In this document: one piece after another, positions 1 through 19,753 of the stretch | Layout of the letters: every line of letters begins with the position of its first letter | How positions within the stretch are numbered: position 1 is the stretch's first letter | NCBI GenBank assembly: GCA_024998565.1 | Contig: JACOEM010000010.1 | Span: 1-64,000, forward strand | Reading direction: 5' to 3' | DNA length: 64,000 bases | Origin: Nitrospira sp. | GTDB lineage: Bacteria; Nitrospirota; Nitrospiria; Nitrospirales; Nitrospiraceae | Translations under genes and position numbers: made by a program | Notes under the pieces: generated by a model | What the model was told of the DNA's origin: nothing | The model's database searches: none | The model's input: the letters and a program-made list of their open reading frames with translations, nothing else

Positions 1-31
1 CTCGTGGGGGATTGGACTCTAAATCGCGGCG

Positions 32-499
32 CTACTCAAGACGGGGGTGACGTCGCCGCCACGCCAACACCCGGCGACTGGCCCAGTCGAGCACGGCGAA
101 CAGATACACGAAGCCCCGCGCCATCGGAATGTAGGTGATATCCGCCGCCCAGACGTGATTGGAACGACGGATCGTCAGATCGCGGAGGAGATACGGATAG
201 ATCGTGTGGGCCGGATGTCGGCGGCTGAAATGCGGCTTGCGATACAGGGCCTCCAGACCCATGTGTCGCATCAAGGTCGCCACATGTCGCCTTCCAATGG
301 CCTGGCCCGCTTGCCGCAAGAGATCGCGCAGCATGCGGGCGCCGGCAAACGGATACTGCAGATGCAGCTCGTCAATGCGGCGCATCAAGGCCAATTCCGC
401 TGCCAACACCGGTGTTGGTTGGTAGTACGCGGTGGACCGGGCCAGCTTCAGCAGCTGACATTGTCGAACGACTGACAGGGCGTGAGTTCGGTCGATCAT
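32..499 (-). pseudogene. IS3-family transposase OrfB, truncated
   Basis: The first about 145 residues match the N-terminal half of an IS3 integrase subunit: the HTH_21 region with YPFAGARMLRDLL and ATLMRHMGLEALY, then the start of the DDE catalytic domain with VWAADITYIP, which supplies the first catalytic aspartate, and FVYLFAVLDWASRRVLAW. After this the frame runs into unrelated residues and stops at 32. Normal OrfB is about 270-290 residues, so the second aspartate and the glutamate of the DDE triad are gone. It should be inactive. A short frameshift followed by more coding sequence beyond position 1 cannot be excluded. Confidence 0.8.
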
Positions 500-795
500 C
501 GCTTTGCGCTCAGCAAGCCCGCCTTGGTGAGAGCGCCTTCTAAAAAATCATTCTCCAGCGCCAGTTGGCCGATCTTCGCGTGAAGCGTTTTGAGATCCGG
601 CGTGTCCGCCGTCGGTGTAGTCCCGCCAAACGCTTCCGCCGCGCGCGCCAGCAATTGTTGCTTCCAGTCGGTGATCTGGGTGGGATGGACGCGAAATTGC
701 TCGGCTAGTTCAGTGAGCGTCTTGTCGCCTTTGAGCGCAGCCAAGGCCACTTGCGCCTTAAACGTCGCCCCGTGATTTCGTCTCGTTCGTTTCAT
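496..795 (-). CDS. IS3-family transposase OrfA (helix-turn-helix subunit)
   Basis: This is a small DNA-binding transposase subunit of 99 residues with the HTH_Tnp_1 pattern: a basic start (MKRTRRNHGATFKAQVALA) followed by LTELAEQFRVHPTQITDWKQQLL. A C-terminal leucine-rich stretch (KTLHAKIGQLALENDFLEGAL) is the coiled coil used for OrfA and OrfAB pairing. I chose the internal ATG because GAGGAGCGAGGCA precedes it and the family normally starts at this basic motif; the open frame extends further upstream to 852. The gene overlaps orfB by ATGA. It looks intact, but it would need a full OrfB to act. Confidence 0.85.
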   Translation of the reverse strand: MKRTRRNHGATFKAQVALAALKGDKTLTELAEQFRVHPTQITDWKQQLLARAAEAFGGTTPTADTPDLKTLHAKIGQLALENDFLEGALTKAGLLSAKR

Positions 796-852
796 TGCCT
801 CGCTCCTCTCGTCTACCACCGCTCGGTGGTGTGGGTGAAGCCAGGCTACCAC

Positions 853-1068
853 TTAGCACACTGTCCGAATTTCCGGGGCCCTCTCTCCACAAGAACAGCG
901 CACTTTCACGTAATCGAAAATGGTTGCATAATCACTGACGCCGACCAACGGCCGTGCATGCGTATCTAAAAGGATATAGCCGTATCCTTTTCGGTACACC
1001 GCTGAAAGGAACCCCATCAAAACCGAAGCTTTTTCCTGCAAGAGAATGGGGCGAAAAAGTGGCTGCAT
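853..1068 (-). pseudogene. Possible gene fragment cut by the IS element
   Basis: A 71-codon frame starts at an ATG and runs straight into the IS terminus; its last dozen residues are encoded by the IS end itself. The first about 58 residues (beginning MQPLFRPILLQEKAS and ending near IFDYVKVRC) match no family I recognise. It may be the start of a gene interrupted by the insertion, or chance. The plus-strand gene beyond it starts at 1158, so the two would be divergent. Confidence 0.25.
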
Positions 1069-1073
1069 TTTTG

Positions 1074-1091
1074 CACCTATAAAAATAGGTG
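1074..1091. promoter_or_regulatory. Inverted repeat upstream of the permease operon
   Basis: Perfect arms CACCTAT and ATAGGTG flank AAAA, in the AT-rich stretch between the IS-side fragment and the permease gene. It could be an operator for the island operon or a small terminator for leftward transcription. The sequence does not decide between these. Confidence 0.3.
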
Positions 1092-1157
1092 AACCCCAAC
1101 TAAGTATGGCCCCGGTCCTTGAATACTAACCTTAGCGCGGCTTTGGGAGGTCAGAAA

Positions 1158-2552
1158 TTGAAACATAGGGGCACTGCCGCGAGCGACCCTCATGCCGTCC
1201 TAGATCGATACGACCTCACAGTTCTAGCCTTGGGTTCAATAATCGGAGCCGGAATCTTTATTGTCATTGGAGACACCGCGGCAACTGCAGAGGGCCATCC
1301 TGGGGTTGGTCCAGGCGTTAGCATAGCTATATTACTTGCTGCAATGATTGCATTTCCCATTGCTCTTTGTTACGCGGAGCTATCGACTATATATCCACAC
1401 GCAGGAACTGCCTACACGTACACTAAGCATGCCATGGGAGATTTCCCTGCCTTCATGACAGGGTGGAGTCTCTACGCGCCATTCGGCATGATAGCTTTAG
1501 CTGTTGGCTGGGCCGACTATGTGAACAACCTGTTCTCCAGCTACGATATTCAGTTAAAAGAGCTCTTTCATGCCTCACTATCAGGCTCAAATTGGTTAGC
1601 TATCGCGATTGCTGTGCTGATGATAGCCCTGGCAAGCCGTGAACTGCGCTGGAGTCGACGTCTTGCAACTGTTTTATTGAGTGTCAATGTCGCCATTGCC
1701 TTCGGTTTCATTTCATTGGCGTTTCAACACGTGAACCCATCCAATTGGTGGCCTGTATTGCCATCAGAATATTCACCATTCCAACACGTCAACCTTGTAC
1801 TTGCGGCCACCGCAACTCTATTTTATGCCTTTACCGGCTTTGAAACAGCAGCGGCAATGGCTCAAGATTCGATTGCGCCACAAAAAGATATTCCATACGC
1901 AATCAAAAATGCTCTTATCATCGCGACACTGATGTATTTGCTAGTGGGCTTGGGCTTGACAGGCATGTTGCGTTCCGACGAGATCGAATTGGGTGCGTCC
2001 CTTTCGAAAGCAGTTACTCTAATCGGGCAGCCATGGGCCGCGCAGTGTATTGGAATTGGCATAGTGTCAGCTTTCTCATGCGTATTGCTGACTACGCTAT
2101 TGAGGCAAAGTCGTTTGGGATATGCCATGGCTAACGAATGCTCTGATAATTCGCCCAATGAGAAACCTGCCGTGTCTTTGGCTGTCACAACCTACGTGAC
2201 AGGGATTGTTTTATTAGCATTTCTTATACTCGGGTTTTCCACCCGTGAGGCCGTAGAAATATATTGTCTCTCAGTGTTGTTTGGGTACTGCATCGTATGC
2301 CTTGATCTCATCGCTCTGAGAATCCAGAAGCCTACATTGCATCGCCCTTTCCTTGTGCCATTTGGAAAGCTTGTTGGAACAACAGGGATTTCAGCCTGCC
2401 TTATCTTAATGATCCAGCTGCCCTTAAAGGCATGGGTTTGGTTTTTGGCGTGGATGGCTGCCGGATTCTTGACATTCTGCATAAGAGTTCGAGTGCAGGC
2501 GATGCAAACATTGGAAAGTGGTTCCCCAATGGAACACTCACAAAGGAGTTAA
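1158..2552 (+). CDS. APC-family amino-acid permease
   Basis: This is an inner-membrane amino-acid transporter of 464 residues, the usual length for the APC superfamily. The first membrane segment carries the diagnostic GSIIGAGIF, followed by CYAELSTIYPHAGTAYTY and a central FYAFTGFETAAAMAQD motif. I see about 12 hydrophobic segments. The substrate is not readable; the layout resembles cationic and neutral amino-acid permeases. I prefer the TTG at 1158 because GGGAGG sits seven bases before it; a TTG at 1119 lacks such a site. It is the first gene of a tight operon whose next start is one base after its stop. Base composition is clearly AT-richer than the region beyond 5,900, in keeping with acquisition by transfer. 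Confidence 0.88.
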   Translation: MKHRGTAASDPHAVLDRYDLTVLALGSIIGAGIFIVIGDTAATAEGHPGVGPGVSIAILLAAMIAFPIALCYAELSTIYPHAGTAYTYTKHAMGDFPAFMTGWSLYAPFGMIALAVGWADYVNNLFSSYDIQLKELFHASLSGSNWLAIAIAVLMIALASRELRWSRRLATVLLSVNVAIAFGFISLAFQHVNPSNWWPVLPSEYSPFQHVNLVLAATATLFYAFTGFETAAAMAQDSIAPQKDIPYAIKNALIIATLMYLLVGLGLTGMLRSDEIELGASLSKAVTLIGQPWAAQCIGIGIVSAFSCVLLTTLLRQSRLGYAMANECSDNSPNEKPAVSLAVTTYVTGIVLLAFLILGFSTREAVEIYCLSVLFGYCIVCLDLIALRIQKPTLHRPFLVPFGKLVGTTGISACLILMIQLPLKAWVWFLAWMAAGFLTFCIRVRVQAMQTLESGSPMEHSQRS

Positions 2553-2553
2553 A

Positions 2554-4188
2554 ATGGTAAGGGTGTTCGTTAGTGGAACATATCGTGACCTGGTTGAATA
2601 CAGAGAGGCCATACTTAAGCATCTAGATAGAATGAGTGACTATCACAAGATCTCTATGGAAATTATGGGCACTAGTGATAGAAACGCGGTCGATAAATCA
2701 ATCTCTGACTTAAAGAACTGCCAAGTCTATCTCGGAATCATTGGACACCGGTATGGGACAATACTTCCGGACTATGATGGGAAATCAATTACGGAGCTCG
2801 AGTATGAAACAGCCTATAACCTTCACAGGATGGACCCTCAAAAAATACGTATTTTGATTTATCTGGCCGACGAGAAAATTCTCCTGCCGGTCAAGTTGCG
2901 GGAGGATGATAGCAAATTCCAAAAAGTATCAGACTTTAGGTTGTTGCTTCAGACTCGGCATACTCCCCAGCTGTTTGACTCAGTATTGGACCTAGTCTCA
3001 AAAGTTTCAACGGACCTTCCCAAAGTATTCACGGACGCAAGTTTACGCCCGTCAATGGAATATACCGTATTCGGGGTATCAGAATTGGGCAGAGTATATG
3101 AGGAGATTGATTCAACCACACAAGAACGTATCAATAAGGTTGAGAACTTTTTGCTTTTTACTGCTGAAACATTTGGCTCGCTTTTTAATCTCGTCCAAAA
3201 TTATGCCTCTCACCCTTTCTTTAAGGCCGTCAGAGAAAAACTGTCGTCTGTCATCCCAGGTTTGTCGTTGAATCCAGAGCATGGAGTTTTAAAACGAGCA
3301 AATGTCAGACACGTGATACTTCGGACTGAGACTCTACTTCCCATCCTCTTGGAACTCACCCCACAACTTCTTCAGAAGGTAGGCGTCAATGCGGGCTCCA
3401 CTGCAGCAGGGGACCTCATCAATCAGACGTTGAGACCCAAGAAGTATGTTCCAGCATCTCCACAGGTATTTATTGCGCTGTGGGACTTTTGGGATAGGAC
3501 GGGTGGCTGGGGAGAAATGTGTCTTGTCGAAGACGTGCCATCATCATGGAAGATCAAAATTACAAATAGCTTTTTGACCCTTGAGAATGATTTAGAAAAG
3601 ACTCACAAACTATGTCATTTCTGGTGCGGGTATATTGAAGGATTCCTTTCCCAGTCATTGCCACTTTTGGCCGACTTGATCGCTGAGTTAGAACCATCGC
3701 AGGCAAATAAAGTTGCCCTGCCAGCATATTGGGAAGTAAGTGAGGTTAAACATCTTAATGAGAGTACATCCACCGAAGATTTTTTCACTGTCTCCTTTAA
3801 GAAAAGAAGATTCTCAGTTTCTCTTGAGGAGGTTATAGCGGCCAAAAGTATGATGGACCACAGCTTCTTTGACTTGGCAGTAGGGCATTGTGTGGGGGCC
3901 CTGCTTCACTCCAAACAAGATTTTGGTGATGATGGTAGATGGATACAGAAGATTTCAGCTATGGACGTGGACATTAGAATACGCAACATCTTGCTAAGAG
4001 AGCAAACTGCTGATTCTGTTGCTGCCAGCCAAGCCATTAGAGGAATTCTTCGCCCACTTACGTTGGATAAAGTAAGTATTTTATTCCATCAAACCAATTA
4101 CATTATCCAGCAACTTGTTCAGGGAGATGAAAGGTGTGAAGATAAAAAGCCTGGAGGAGTTGCAGCGAACGCTCTTGCCGCATTCTAA
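2554..4188 (+). CDS. DUF4062 protein with V4R-like C-terminal domain
   Basis: The N-terminal about 115 residues are a DUF4062 domain: VRVFVSGTYRDLVEYREAI, then NCQVYLGIIGHRYG and KSITELEYETAY, which form the conserved core. DUF4062 often heads large signalling or conflict proteins with NTPase or repeat domains, but no such NTPase follows here. Residues about 260-405 instead resemble a V4R (4-vinyl-reductase-like) small-molecule-binding domain: a helical lead-in, GGWGEMCLVE, KITNSF, then CHFWCGYIEGFL, and a closing FFTVSF strand. The last 130 residues are helical and unassigned. No signal peptide or membrane segment is seen, so it should be cytoplasmic. The ATG is preceded by AAGGAGTTAAA and lies one base after the permease stop. 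The DUF4062 call is firm; the V4R call is by pattern only. Confidence 0.75.
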   Translation: MVRVFVSGTYRDLVEYREAILKHLDRMSDYHKISMEIMGTSDRNAVDKSISDLKNCQVYLGIIGHRYGTILPDYDGKSITELEYETAYNLHRMDPQKIRILIYLADEKILLPVKLREDDSKFQKVSDFRLLLQTRHTPQLFDSVLDLVSKVSTDLPKVFTDASLRPSMEYTVFGVSELGRVYEEIDSTTQERINKVENFLLFTAETFGSLFNLVQNYASHPFFKAVREKLSSVIPGLSLNPEHGVLKRANVRHVILRTETLLPILLELTPQLLQKVGVNAGSTAAGDLINQTLRPKKYVPASPQVFIALWDFWDRTGGWGEMCLVEDVPSSWKIKITNSFLTLENDLEKTHKLCHFWCGYIEGFLSQSLPLLADLIAELEPSQANKVALPAYWEVSEVKHLNESTSTEDFFTVSFKKRRFSVSLEEVIAAKSMMDHSFFDLAVGHCVGALLHSKQDFGDDGRWIQKISAMDVDIRIRNILLREQTADSVAASQAIRGILRPLTLDKVSILFHQTNYIIQQLVQGDERCEDKKPGGVAANALAAF

Positions 4189-5266
4189 AGTGCTACTACT
4201 TTACAGTGGTGGCCTGGATGGCAGTTTCCTTTTGTGGTGGCTTTCTAAGCAATCTATAGGGAAGCTATTCGCTCTAACAATTGACCTTGGCGGTGATCTA
4301 GACCTTTCCGTTGTTAGAGAGATTTGCTCAAATTTCGGTGCAGAATCGCTCGTGATCGACAAACGTGAGGAGTTTGTCGCTGAATATGTGGCGCCATCTA
4401 TACCAGCTCAGGGTTACTATCTGGGGGGTCATCCGATCTGTGCATCCTTAAGCAGGCCATTAATGGCAAAAGTTGCAGTGGAAGTTGCGTGCCGCGAAAA
4501 AATTGATGTGCTGTTGCATTCGTCAAATGTAACGCAAAATAGCCTTCGCCGATTCAATGGTGCATTAGAAAGTTTGCAGTTTGCAGGTGTTTTTGGCTCT
4601 CCTTTCGAGGAGAGTACTATAACGAGGGAAGAAAAGAGGAAATGCTTATTATGCAGCGGAGGATGGAAAGGGACAGATGCTCGCTTCAGTTCCGATACAA
4701 ATCTATGGGGAAGGGAATTTGAGAATGGAAGTCTAGATGATCCGGAGAACATAGATATTCCTGAAGAAATATTCTCCTGGACGCGGCAACCTAGGGCTAA
4801 GAGCAGTCGAAAGATAAGTCTTAAGTTTGAGCGAGGCCTCCCCTCCAGCTTAGATTCTGTGCCTATGGGTCTCTCTAAGATAATATCTCGATTGCAATTT
4901 GAGGTCGGAGCTTTTGGGATCGGACGTTATGTTGGATTGGAAGAGATCCAAAATGGTAGCAAGGTACAAGAGGTTCGTGAAATGCCCGCTGCTACGTTGC
5001 TTTATGACGCCTATCGCAGGTTAGAATCGGCTTCGGTACGATCAGAATGTGTTCGAGAGAAATTATGCTTGGAGCAGCTTTGGGTCAGAGAAGCTATTGA
5101 AGGAAGATGGTTTGGGTTGCTCCGAGAGTCGGCTCAAGAATTCATCAACCATGTTGCGGCCCGGGTGAATGGGACAATAGAATATGAGCTAGATTCGCAA
5201 GGGTTTAAGGTGCAATCACTTCGTAGTGAGATTCCGAGATACTTGCGTTCCAGGGGCGAGAGCTGA
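4136..5266 (+). CDS. Argininosuccinate-synthase-like PP-loop ligase
   Basis: This 376-residue protein follows argininosuccinate synthase along most of its length: the ATP-pyrophosphatase loop YSGGLDGS at about residues 23-30, SRPLMAKVAVEVA, SSDTNLWGREFE, and the C-terminal FGIGRYVGLEEIQNGSKVQE and TLLYDAYRRLE. The segment that in true ArgG reads roughly GKGNDQVRFE and binds aspartate and citrulline is changed to NVTQNSLRRFN, and a CLLCSGGW stretch is added. I infer an AMP-forming ligase acting on different substrates, not the arginine-pathway enzyme. Start GTG 4136 has GGGAG nine bases upstream; ATG 4127 is an alternative. It overlaps the DUF4062 gene by about 50 bases, so the two are probably co-translated. 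Confidence 0.72.
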   Translation: MKIKSLEELQRTLLPHSKVLLLYSGGLDGSFLLWWLSKQSIGKLFALTIDLGGDLDLSVVREICSNFGAESLVIDKREEFVAEYVAPSIPAQGYYLGGHPICASLSRPLMAKVAVEVACREKIDVLLHSSNVTQNSLRRFNGALESLQFAGVFGSPFEESTITREEKRKCLLCSGGWKGTDARFSSDTNLWGREFENGSLDDPENIDIPEEIFSWTRQPRAKSSRKISLKFERGLPSSLDSVPMGLSKIISRLQFEVGAFGIGRYVGLEEIQNGSKVQEVREMPAATLLYDAYRRLESASVRSECVREKLCLEQLWVREAIEGRWFGLLRESAQEFINHVAARVNGTIEYELDSQGFKVQSLRSEIPRYLRSRGES

Positions 5267-5534
5267 GACAGAAGGATGTAAGGATTTGATTGATTCCGCG
5301 AGCCAAGCTCAGCGTTCTCAACAGCATAAGCATGGGAAGCATAATGATGGAAACTGTCTCAGCGAAGGGGTTCACCCCATATGCGTGTGCTAAATTTGTG
5401 CTAAAAAGTTTTGAAAAGGACTCCATTCAGTAGAAATCGTGGAATCGATGGAAGCGACCTAACATCTTGATTCGTCGATAAAACCGGGGAAACCTTCGCG
5501 AGATCAAGCCGCTATAGAAATACTACTTAACGAA
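5267..5534. other. Island end, non-coding, with short direct repeats
   Basis: This 268-bp stretch runs between the last island gene and the tRNA fragment. I see no convincing gene. It contains GTGCTAAA twice, at 5387-5394 and 5398-5405, 11 bases apart and so on one face of the helix. Such repeats beside a tRNA junction can be integrase arm-binding sites, but no integrase gene is in view. Confidence 0.4.
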
Positions 5535-5579
5535 CTTTTAAGGCGAGGGTCCTGGGTTCGAATCCCAGCCGACTCACCA
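5535..5579 (+). repeat. 3' half of tRNA-Lys(UUU), putative attachment site
   Basis: The sequence begins exactly with a seven-base anticodon loop CTTTTAA (anticodon TTT). It continues with the 3' anticodon-stem strand GGCGA, a five-base variable loop GGGTC, a perfect T arm (CTGGG, TTCGAAT, CCCAG at 5552-5568), the acceptor strand CCGACTC, discriminator A and CCA. Bases upstream (ACGAA) do not pair with GGCGA, and no D arm or 5' acceptor strand is present, so it is not a working tRNA. A fragment running from anticodon loop to 3' end is the common core left when an element integrates into a tRNA gene. The intact tRNA-Lys should lie left of this window. Confidence 0.85.
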
Positions 5580-5923
5580 TACAAATTCGGCATTCCTGTA
5601 ATCCCCGCTAGTGCTCCTGAATTCATTAGCCCGCTGCTTTTTCTCCGGCGTGAGTTCCGCTGATTCGGCAGTCCATCTTTGCGTTCGCCGTTTCACCTGG
5701 GGTGCTCGCTGTCTGTCGCACATTCAGTCATCCACTTGGCCGCGTGCGTTTTAGGGTTGAGGATGCTCCGGCAGACGTGCAAGATGTCGATTCACGTTCT
5801 TATAGTTTGCTCTGCCCGGTCACTCTCAGTACCGATCCTCAGAGACATCACAACCATGGTGCTCCCAACGTGGGTATCACATTGCGTGGCCAGTGGCGGC
5901 CGCGCACACGAAAGGAATGACAC
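5580..5923. other. Intergenic stretch, no supported gene
   Basis: This 344-bp stretch lies between the tRNA fragment and the lipoprotein gene. Short overlapping frames exist on both strands, but none has a ribosome-binding site plus recognisable sequence. A promoter for the following gene presumably lies here; I could not pick one out. Confidence 0.5.
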
Positions 5924-15943: not shown

Positions 15944-18900
15944 ACCTGTCTGCGCCCTTTGTGCGACGGCCGGTCGCCACGACGTTGCTCACCATCGGTG
16001 CGACGCTGGTGGGCATCGTCGCATTTCAATTCCTGCCTGTAGCCTCTCTCCCGCAAGTCGAATTTCCCACGATCAATGTGTCGGCCTCGCTGCCGGGGGC
16101 GAGCCCCGAGACGATGGCCTCGTCCGTTGCCGCTCCGTTGGAGCGCCAGTTCACCCGTATCGCGGGCGTGACGGAGATGACCTCTTCCAGCACGATCGGC
16201 GGAACCAATGTCACGCTGCAATTCGAGCTGAGCCGCGATATCGACGGGGCAGCGCGGGACGTGCAAGCGGCCATCAATGCGGCGCGCGCCGATCTGCCGT
16301 CGAATCTGCCGACCGTTCCACGGTACAGCAAGGTGAATCCGGCCGACGGCCCCATTCTCATCCTCGCCTTGACGTCCGAGCTCGTGAGTCGCGGGCAGAT
16401 GTACGATGCCGCCTCCAGCATCCTGCAGCAGAAACTGTCGCAGGTCGAAGGCGTCGGGCAGGTCGCCGTGGGAGGCGGGTCCCTGCCGGCGATCCGGGTG
16501 GATCTCAATCCGACCGCCTTGAATAAGTATGGGATCGGACTGGGTGAGGTGCGTCAGGTCCTGACCAGTACGAACGTAAATCGGCCGAAGGGGCAACTGA
16601 CAAGCGACGACCGCACCTGGGAAATCCGCACCAACGACCAACTTCAGCAGGCGGAGGAGTATCTGCCGTTGATCGTGGCCTATCGAAACGGGCGGGCGGT
16701 GCAGCTGTCCGATGTAGCCTCGGTGGAAATGTCCGTCGAAGATCTCCGGACCATGGGGGTGGCCAACGGCACCCCGGCGGTGCTGGTGATTATTTATCGC
16801 CAAGCGGGCGCCAACATCATCGAAACGGTGGATCGGCTGCGTGCGCAACTTCCTCAATTGGAGGCCTCGCTGCCGGGGAGTATGTCGCTGTCGATCGTCA
16901 TGGACCGTACGCCCGTCATCCGCGCCTCGCTGCACGACGTCGAGCGTACCATGGCCATTTCCGTCGGACTGGTCATTCTGGTGGTGTTCGTGTTTCTCCG
17001 GAATCTGCGCGCCACCTTGATTCCGGCGGTGGCGGTTCCCGTGTCTCTGATCTCCACGTTTGGCGTGATGTACCTGTTCGGGTATAGCCTCGACAATCTT
17101 TCCCTCATGGCGCTCACGATCGCCACCGGCTTTGTGGTGGATGATGCGATCGTGGTGCTCGAAAACATCACGCGCTACCGGGAGCAGGGGTTGTCGCCGG
17201 TGGACGCGGCGCTCCGCGGCGCGAAGGAGATCGCGTTTACGGTTGTGTCGATGACCCTCTCGCTGGTGGCGGTGTTCATCCCGATCTTCTTGATGGGCGG
17301 CATGCTCGGCCGGCTGTTTCGTGAATTTGCGGTGACGCTCTCGACCGCTATCCTGGTGTCGTTGCTGGTGTCGCTTACGACCATCCCGATGCTCTGCGCG
17401 CGGGTGTTGAAGTCAGAACCGGCAGAGTCCCATGGCTGGTGGTATCGCGTCAGTGAGCGGGGGTTCGGTCTGTTGTCCGGCGGCTATGCGACCAGCCTGG
17501 CCTGGGTCCTCCGCCATCCGCGCACGATGTTGGTGGTGACGTTGGGGACCATGGCGCTCACGGTCTATTTGTATATCCTCGTGCCGAAAGGATTTTTCCC
17601 TCAGCAGGACACAGGGCGACTCTTTGGAAACATTCAGGCCGCACAGGATATCTCGTTTCAGGCGATGCGTCAGAAATTGACTGACGTGGTGGACATCATC
17701 AAGAGCGATCCCGCCGTCGCCAGCATCACCGGCTTTACCGGAGGCGGCAGCCATGCCGGCACCACCAATACAGGACGCATGTTCATCGCGCTCAAGCCTC
17801 TGGAAGAGCGAGGGATCAGTTCTGATGAAGTGATCGTCCGGTTGCGCCCCAAGCTGGCGAAGGTGCCGGGAGCGCCGACCTATCTGCAGGCGATTCAGGA
17901 TTTGCGTATCGGCGGTCGGGCGAGCAGCGCACAATATCAATATACCCTGCAGAGTGTGGATCTGGCCGAACTCAACACCTGGGCTCCGAAGGTCGAGGCC
18001 AAGTTGCGGACTGTCCCGGAGATCGTGGATGTGAACAGCGATCAGCAGGACCGGGGGCAGCAATCGTTGGTGGTCTTCGACCGGGTCACGGCCTCACGGC
18101 TGGGCTTAAGTCCTCAATTGATCGACGACACGCTCTACGATGCCTTTGGCCAGCGGCAGGTCTCAATCATGTATACGCCGCTCAATCAGTACCATGTCGT
18201 GATGGAGGTGGCGCCGCAATATTGGCAGAACCCCTCGGCGTTGCATGATATTTACGTCCGCTCGCCGAACGGCGGGCAAGTGCCGTTGAGTGCCGTGACG
18301 CGATATGAGCCGGCCAACACGATCCTCTCGGTGAATCACCAGGGGCAGTTTCCCGCCGTGACGTTGTCGTTCAACATGGCGCCGGGCGCATCCCTCGGGC
18401 AGGCTGTGCTCGCCGTCGATCAGGCGATGCATGACATCGGCCTGCCCGCGACGGTGCGCGGTACCTTTCAAGGTACGGCGAAGGCCTTTCAGTCGTCGGT
18501 CGAAAATCAGCCCTGGCTGATCCTGGCGGCGTTGGTCACGGTGTATATCGTGCTGGGCATTCTCTACGAGAGTTACATCCACCCGATCACGATTCTCTCG
18601 ACGCTGCCTTCAGCCGGCGTCGGCGCGTTGCTGGCCCTGCTGCTGTTCAAGACGGAACTGAGCATGATCGCGTTGATCGGGATCATGTTGCTGATCGGCA
18701 TCGTGAAAAAGAACGCCATCATGATGATCGACTTTGCGTTACACAGCGAACGGATGGCGGAAGGGAAGACTCCGCAGGAAGCGATCTACGAAGCCTGCCT
18801 GCTGCGGTTCCGTCCGATCATGATGACGACCGCCGCAGCTCTGCTGGGCGCACTTCCTCTGGCCGTGGGTATGGGGGTCGGATCGGAGTTGCGGCGTCCG

Positions 18901-19041
18901 CTCGGCATTGCGATCGTCGGCGGCCTGCTCGTGAGTCAGATGCTGACTCTCTATACGACTCCCGTCGTCTACCTCTTCCTCGATCGCCTGAGGCTTCGAT
19001 GGGTACGAGCCCGGGCGGCTGCTCTGCACCCTGCCGCATAA
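15940..19041 (+). CDS. mdtC: RND efflux permease, MdtC-like
   Basis: This second HAE1 permease of 1,033 residues resembles its neighbour along its length: [35 protein letters not shown], the DD pair in [17 protein letters not shown], and [32 protein letters not shown]. The pair probably arose by tandem duplication and forms a mixed trimer. The ATG overlaps the preceding stop by four bases. No outer-membrane channel gene lies in the operon, so a TolC-like partner must come from elsewhere. Transcription leads towards the sigma-factor gene 190 bp further on. Confidence 0.93.
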
Positions 19042-19231
19042 CGGGCCGCTAACCGCTCTCATCCGGCTCCATCCTCACAATTACTTTCTTGCCTGCAATA
19101 TCCGGAATCCGATCATTCTCTTTTCGCCCGCGAGACCCTAGGCTGCTCCCTCAGAAGTCACAAGATCCCGGCATGGTTGGCAGCGGATGTGTGCACGACC
19201 GCCGCGCCGTCTGGCCCAGAGCAACGATGAC

Positions 19232-19753
19232 ATGAGCGCCTCACCCTCGATCGATCTGGAACGGTTGTTTCACGAGCATCAGCGCGATCTCCTGGCCATG
19301 CTTCGGCGCATGGTGGGATGCCAGGAAACCGCGGCCGATCTGGCTCAGGAAGCGTATATTCGTCTCGCCGATGTTCCCACATCGCAGATCATTGCGTCCC
19401 CACGCGCATTCCTGTTTCGGACTGCCACGAATCTCGCGTTGGACCATTTCAGGAAACAGAAATTCCGCGGCCAGCGGCACACGTCACTGGAAGAGGCCGA
19501 ACAGGTTCCCACCGGCACACGACCGGTCGATGCCCAGGCGCATGACAGGCAATTGGTCGCGACGCTTGAGAAGGCGCTCTCCTCCCTCCCGGACCGCACC
19601 CGGGCTATCTTTGCCATGCGGCGGGTGTACGGGTATTCCTACCAGGAAATTGCGGCGCAATTGGGGATGTCTGAACGCGCCGTCGAAAAGCAGCTCGTCA
19701 AAGCGATGACCTGCTGTCAGGAAGCGCTTCGTTCCAAAGATCTGCAGGCCTGA
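19232..19753 (+). CDS. ECF sigma factor, FecI-like
   Basis: This 173-residue sigma-70 family protein has region 2 (FHEHQRDLLAMLRRMVG, ETAADLAQEAYIRLAD, AFLFRTATNLALDHFRKQK) and region 4 (LPDRTRAIFAMRRVYGYSYQEIAAQLGMSERAVEKQLVKAM). This is the iron-starvation FecI class, normally held by a FecR-type protein and released when a TonB receptor is occupied. The two following genes are exactly such partners. ATG 19232 is selected by family length; its ribosome-binding site is weak, and the frame extends to 19187. Confidence 0.9.
   Translation: MSASPSIDLERLFHEHQRDLLAMLRRMVGCQETAADLAQEAYIRLADVPTSQIIASPRAFLFRTATNLALDHFRKQKFRGQRHTSLEEAEQVPTGTRPVDAQAHDRQLVATLEKALSSLPDRTRAIFAMRRVYGYSYQEIAAQLGMSERAVEKQLVKAMTCCQEALRSKDLQA

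Follow-up and report, generated by a model that had tools for sequence, protein, structure and literature searches.

A candidate two-gene abortive-infection module pairing a DUF4062-V4R protein with an ArgG-like ligase on a tRNA-Lys-integrated island of Nitrospira

We analyzed a window of 64,000 nucleotides from Nitrospira sp. (assembly GCA_024998565.1, contig JACOEM010000010.1, positions 1 to 64,000), in which an operon at 1158-5266 encodes an amino acid permease, a DUF4062-V4R protein (gene 2), and an ArgG-like ligase (gene 3). With somewhat better than even confidence, we read genes 2 and 3 as a two-gene abortive-infection module residing on a defense island integrated at a tRNA-Lys gene. 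This reading draws on the domain identities and predicted folds of the two proteins, the catalytic residues they have kept, their adjacency in three phyla, and their location in a mobile defense island. All three predicted open reading frames (ORFs) were confirmed, with a plausible ribosome-binding site before each, and the features of the operon are as follows:

1158..2552, + strand: APC-superfamily amino acid permease (accessory); TTG start, GGGAGG 7 bases upstream; PF13520 (AA_permease_2), 2e-36
2554..4188, + strand: DUF4062-V4R gene; ATG start, AAAGGAG upstream; PF13271 (DUF4062), 8e-21
2554..3048, + strand: DUF4062/TIR-like domain of gene 2, residues 1-165; E83 aligned with catalytic E97 of KpSwz
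3079..3807, + strand: predicted V4R/MopR-DmpR-like sensor domain of gene 2, residues ~176-418 (predicted fold)
4136..5266, + strand: ArgG-like ligase of family argG_rel (NF038212); GTG start, AGGGAG upstream; Pfam Arginosuc_synth N and C domains, 2e-24 and 3e-29

The permease stop codon and the DUF4062 gene are spaced by one base, and the latter overlaps the ArgG-like gene by 53 bases. The G+C content of 1158-5266 is 0.460, compared with a mean of 0.608 (standard deviation 0.011, minimum 0.584) for equal 4.1-kb windows elsewhere. A preliminary description of this DNA, made from its sequence, had reported the AT-richness, the one-base spacing, and an overlap of about 50 bases, all of which hold (G+C 46% versus 61%).

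The pair of genes 2 and 3 is conserved, and the permease is not. All six DUF4062-V4R proteins found are followed immediately by the ligase, with the genes overlapping, no more than 2 bp apart, or fused, and the carriers (the window, one Acidobacterium, and four Frankiales) belong to three phyla. The five loci outside the window are:

L003, Acidobacterium: 26-base overlap between the DUF4062-V4R and ligase genes; N-terminal metallophosphatase
L004, Protofrankia: 4-base overlap
L005:4083-6425, Ca. Frankia californiensis: in-frame fusion to the ligase (780 amino acids) without the second half of the V4R part, being either a decayed or a fusion form
L006, Frankia canadensis: 4-base overlap
L045 (genome G317), another Frankiales member: 2-base gap

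The last of these is an independent test of adjacency, because it was found by the V4R part alone without use of the ligase. Matches to the V4R part numbered four in 35 genomes of the Frankiales order, the same four in 394 genomes of the Actinobacterial class, and one in 347 genomes of the Acidobacterial group, with no case of a V4R part lacking the ligase among these genomes. None was found in 398 genomes of Pseudomonadota, a search that carried no positive control, and none on plasmids. Viral contigs and phage records yielded no relative either, and a phage or viral origin was rejected on this ground. The permease shares about 33% identity with ordinary core permeases found in relatives (about 31% with the best plasmid matches), and it is missing next to the other pairs wherever their flanks are readable. 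Thus, the proposal of the preliminary description that the trio forms a unit was rejected; the adjacency across genomes that it had suggested examining for genes 2 and 3 was confirmed for that pair. The permease gene probably has an accessory role or is a passenger, and it perhaps encodes an importer of the substrate.

The N-terminal part of gene 2 matches PF13271 with 74.5 bits (cut-off 24.7). Profile matches to PDB entries include the DUF4062 domain of KpSwz (6e-11), with the sequence match ending near residue 180, and human TEP1 (2e-4). In 2026, DUF4062 was reported as an experimentally shown TIR-like NADase and anti-phage effector in the Swarozyc system (PMC13174449). In the structural model of gene 2 (mean predicted local distance difference test score [pLDDT] 70.8), residues 1-165 adopt a TIR/nucleoside-hydrolase fold (Z ~13). 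E83 is invariant across four aligned homologs, and its counterpart in KpSwz chain 10wc_A as deposited is position 84, which reads Ala, as expected if this chain is the published E97A construct; E83 would be the equivalent of the catalytic Glu. Judging from these alignments, the N-terminal domain is predicted to be a TIR-like NADase. Moreover, the modules at the N termini of the DUF4062-V4R homologs differ (metallophosphatase, HTH-like, or none), as is typical of conflict proteins.

For the C-terminal part, sequence profiles are silent and Pfam gives no V4R match, and its assignment comes from the predicted fold. The model of residues ~176-418 resembles Bet3-Trs33 (2c0j, Z 11.6), the MopR sensor (5kbi, Z 11.6), DmpR (6iy8, Z 11.4), and the V4R protein MJ1460 (2oso, Z 10.0), being akin overall to V4R/Bet3 and to the phenol-sensor domains of MopR, DmpR, and PoxR (XylR_N plus V4R) at Z ~11 over 136-160 residues. 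Identity to these sensors is only about 12% over a similar fold of ~150 residues. In addition, their sensor domain drives an AAA+ activator, whereas the sensor-like part of gene 2 would drive an NADase domain. MopR has a zinc site; no conserved cysteine (zinc) motif of that kind was seen in the alignment of the homologs. The model suggests that this domain is like a small-molecule sensor and may bind a ligand. The match to PF13271 and the V4R-like predicted fold agree with the earlier description of gene 2 as a DUF4062-V4R sensor/effector protein.

Gene 3 scores 435.8 bits against the argG_rel model NF038212 (cut-off 425). Its closest solved relatives are 9LEI and 9LEH (profile match 1e-109; the best true ArgG reaches 3e-57), and it shares 37.5% identity with 9LEI over 373 amino acids. 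By its title, the source of these structures (Zeng et al. 2025, ACS Catal., as cited in PMC13060819) describes an argininosuccinate synthase (ASS)-like nitrile synthetase, the substrate of which was not found in our search of the open literature. Gene 3 retains the SGGLD ATP motif of the PP-loop, and relative to ArgG it carries xTQNS in place of GKGND, Glu in place of the Ser before Y(E)GG, and VREMP in place of VYETP (Tyr to Arg). These replacements are common to the nitrile synthetase (QNSL.R.N, NLW.REFE, and KV.EVRE.PAA in both) and to all aligned argG_rel proteins, except for a more distant Streptomyces member. The replaced positions are presumably aspartate/citrulline-site residues of ArgG, so gene 3 lacks the substrate-site signature of that enzyme. 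Since these signature residues differ and a canonical ArgG is encoded separately in the same genome, an ordinary ArgG duplicate was ruled out. The argG_rel membership and the relation to nitrile synthetase fit the earlier suggestion of a PP-loop enzyme with amino-acid-type chemistry. Conversion of nicotinamide to a nitrile was also considered as the ligase chemistry and set aside without evidence for it.

Maximum-likelihood analysis grouped the DUF4062-linked ligases together (support 91/93), with a dioxygenase-linked clade (93/94) that includes 9LEI as their sister group. The DUF4062-linked ligases differ from that clade by clade-specific residues (G29, C64, H99, A103, F140, I206, and Q278), and because such differences lie near the active site (G29, H99, A103, and Q278), their substrate may differ from that of 9LEI. 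The partners differ as well: ligases of the 9LEI type are accompanied by an amino-acid-type 2-oxoglutarate (2OG) hydroxylase with an exporter, whereas the partner of gene 3 is the DUF4062-V4R protein. Operons of argG_rel with a PF10014 dioxygenase gene, mostly with an EamA exporter, were observed on plasmids of rhizobia, Vibrio, and Burkholderia (L036, L034, L039, and L032) and are probably pathways for hydroxylated nitrile-type amino acids. The distant Streptomyces gene lies in a plasmid cluster (L038:5899-14967) with a TauD dioxygenase and AMP-binding and condensation-domain genes, the product of which may be a modified amino acid.

Further examination of the flanks placed the operon on a mobile island, the window side of which has two marks that the preliminary description had not seen:

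5535..5581, + strand: attachment (att) repeat, a copy of the tRNA-Lys 3' end at the right island edge; 47 bp identical to 168752-168798 of contig C9 of the same genome (G000)
1..852, - strand: IS3-type transposase genes (HTH_21 plus rve/HTH_Tnp_1); orfB cut by the contig end, orfA at 496-852

An intact tRNA-Lys gene, the 3' end of which equals the 47-bp repeat, is located at C9:168721-168796. It is adjoined by a tyrosine integrase, followed by an HTH_17 protein, RadC, and an inovirus-like Zot protein; by the contig end, 26 kb further, the G+C content has dropped to 0.45 and the contig terminates in sequence that by eye resembles an insertion sequence (IS). In the related genome G1067, an 866-bp query joining the sequence left of the tRNA to that right of the repeat gave a single contiguous 868-bp match, representing an empty site. 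Most simply, therefore, C9:168799-194942 and window positions 1-5581 represent opposite ends of a single island, the length of which is at least 31.7 kb. The window begins at the contig start, inside the IS3-type element, and the assembly was probably broken within the island by IS copies. The joint acquisition assumed earlier is thus supported by the att repeat, the integrase, and the empty site.

The C9 part of the island encodes a DrmD-like helicase (715 bits), an AAA protein, a type III methylase (495 bits) and restriction enzyme (732 bits), a PDC-S02 DUF1016 protein (453 bits), a Ymh-type protein, and a caspase-domain protein. At the same tRNA-Lys site, the related genome G094 carries an insert of 35 kb that encodes patatin-SLOG, WD40-TIR, and TIR-NACHT proteins; the site is an integration hotspot for defense cargo. 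Of the option of defense or signaling raised in the preliminary description, it can be said that this location and the link of DUF4062 to NADases support it. Among the other genomes compared at the site (G094, G055, G123, G1062, and G1067), G055 has a small integrase island and G123 several att copies over 81 kb. Within the island itself, the caspase-domain (Peptidase_C14) gene (L047:17447-18427, on C9) is flanked by ORFs of 379 amino acids (16177-17316) and 202 amino acids (18784-19392), neither with a Pfam match, and together they possibly constitute another defense system. The Zot-type protein and its 422-amino-acid neighbor (L046:16564-19188, on C9) are inovirus-like and close to the integrase; a filamentous phage may have been used or absorbed by the island.

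Several observations weigh against the abortive-infection interpretation. The pair is rare: argG_rel was seen in a single genome out of 296 from the window's phylum and the V4R part in one of the 347 Acidobacterial genomes. No PADLOC model matched genes 2 and 3, or the permease. The context of mobile or defense-rich regions, which the preliminary description had proposed to check, applies to the window copy; the Frankiales loci by eye do not appear rich in defense genes. The structural models have mean pLDDT values of 62-71 and derive from a shallow alignment, and the join between C9 and C10 (the window's contig) is deduced from the att repeat together with the empty site, with no single contig across it.

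The main rival explanation, although we regard it as quite unlikely, is that the ligase makes no diffusible signal but modifies a protein, attaching a small carboxylate that it has activated to its DUF4062-V4R partner or to another protein. QueC-family enzymes have been adapted for N-terminal protein modification in two defense systems (the QueC-like Cap9 and probably QatC), and QatB and QatC form a complex as a minimal pair (PMC13279940); the tight gene overlap in our pairs suggests coupled translation. However, the partners share neither an N-terminal glycine motif nor a conserved tail, the added modules make their N termini differ, and the ligase belongs to the ASS family rather than to QueC. 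Similarly, the modules of type IV cyclic-oligonucleotide-based anti-phage signaling systems (CBASS) and qatABCD combine a PP-loop enzyme of nitrile-synthetase ancestry with a partner protein, but they use the QueC family (PF06508) with 7-deazaguanine chemistry and no DUF4062 partner (PMC13279940).

A biosynthetic operon, which we judge unlikely, would have the ligase make a nitrile-type or otherwise modified amino acid serving as an antimetabolite, the permease move the substrate or product, and the DUF4062-V4R protein act in regulation or self-resistance. The PF10014 2OG dioxygenases adjoining the sister-clade ligases, with EamA exporters in most loci read, and the amino acid permease one base upstream in the window are in line with such a role. 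Yet the DUF4062-linked loci that were read showed neither a hydroxylase nor an exporter, and the permease lacks conservation beside the pair. In addition, the NADase Glu is retained in the partner, and the window copy lies within a defense island. It is improbable, finally, that gene 2 is a stand-alone Swarozyc-like NADase whose C-terminal part senses a phage protein, with the ligase silencing it or being a metabolic passenger. KpSwz (PDB 10wc, 11cq, and 11cv) indeed consists of only one gene and uses its auxiliary domain to recognize the phage portal that triggers it; it shares with gene 2 the N-terminal DUF4062 domain and the aligned catalytic Glu (PMC13174449). Its portal-binding auxiliary domain, however, is helix-turn-helix/winged, whereas that of gene 2 is modeled with moderate confidence as a V4R/phenol-sensor fold. 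Moreover, the window system adds an ASS-like ligase as a second gene that looks obligate, and its presence in all six loci is unlike a passenger. The Swarozyc preprint (PMC13174449) makes no mention of V4R, a synthase, or a PP-loop.

Under the abortive-infection interpretation, the ArgG-like enzyme would adenylate the carboxylate (or amide) of an amino-acid-like substrate via its PP-loop and yield a small molecule derived from an amino acid, perhaps a nitrile or an amide. In the partner, the V4R domain would sense this product, or be otherwise under ligase control, and the TIR-like domain would then oligomerize, destroy NAD+, and halt phage growth. We infer a design of signal synthase plus sensor-effector, including binding of the ligase product by the V4R domain, because an NADase-type domain, a sensor-type domain, and a ligase occur in one overlapping unit on a defense island. 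A more specific version, in which an ASS-like nitrile synthetase makes an amino-acid nitrile (or a related amide or adenylate product) as an alarm read by a V4R-TIR-like NADase, would define a new class of signal-based immunity, and we put it forward tentatively as a doubtful but real possibility.

Both the effector domain and the ligase family are already known, and our search of the open literature found no combination of DUF4062 with argininosuccinate synthase; the signal chemistry has a genuine chance of being novel. We know of no signal-generating immune system that uses messengers other than nucleotides or NAD-derived molecules. If the alarm reading is true, the messenger here would be amino-acid-derived and not a nucleotide. 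More generally, the pair suggests that an amino-acid- or nitrile-type ligand, or a protein modification made by the ligase, controls an NADase, and it offers a testable role for the DUF4062-linked branch of argG_rel and for a V4R-type sensor in immunity. QueC-family enzymes, a PP-loop family of nitrile synthetases, serve type IV CBASS and qatABCD immunity (PMC13279940), and the pair described here would extend the use of nitrile-synthetase-type enzymes in defense beyond QueC.
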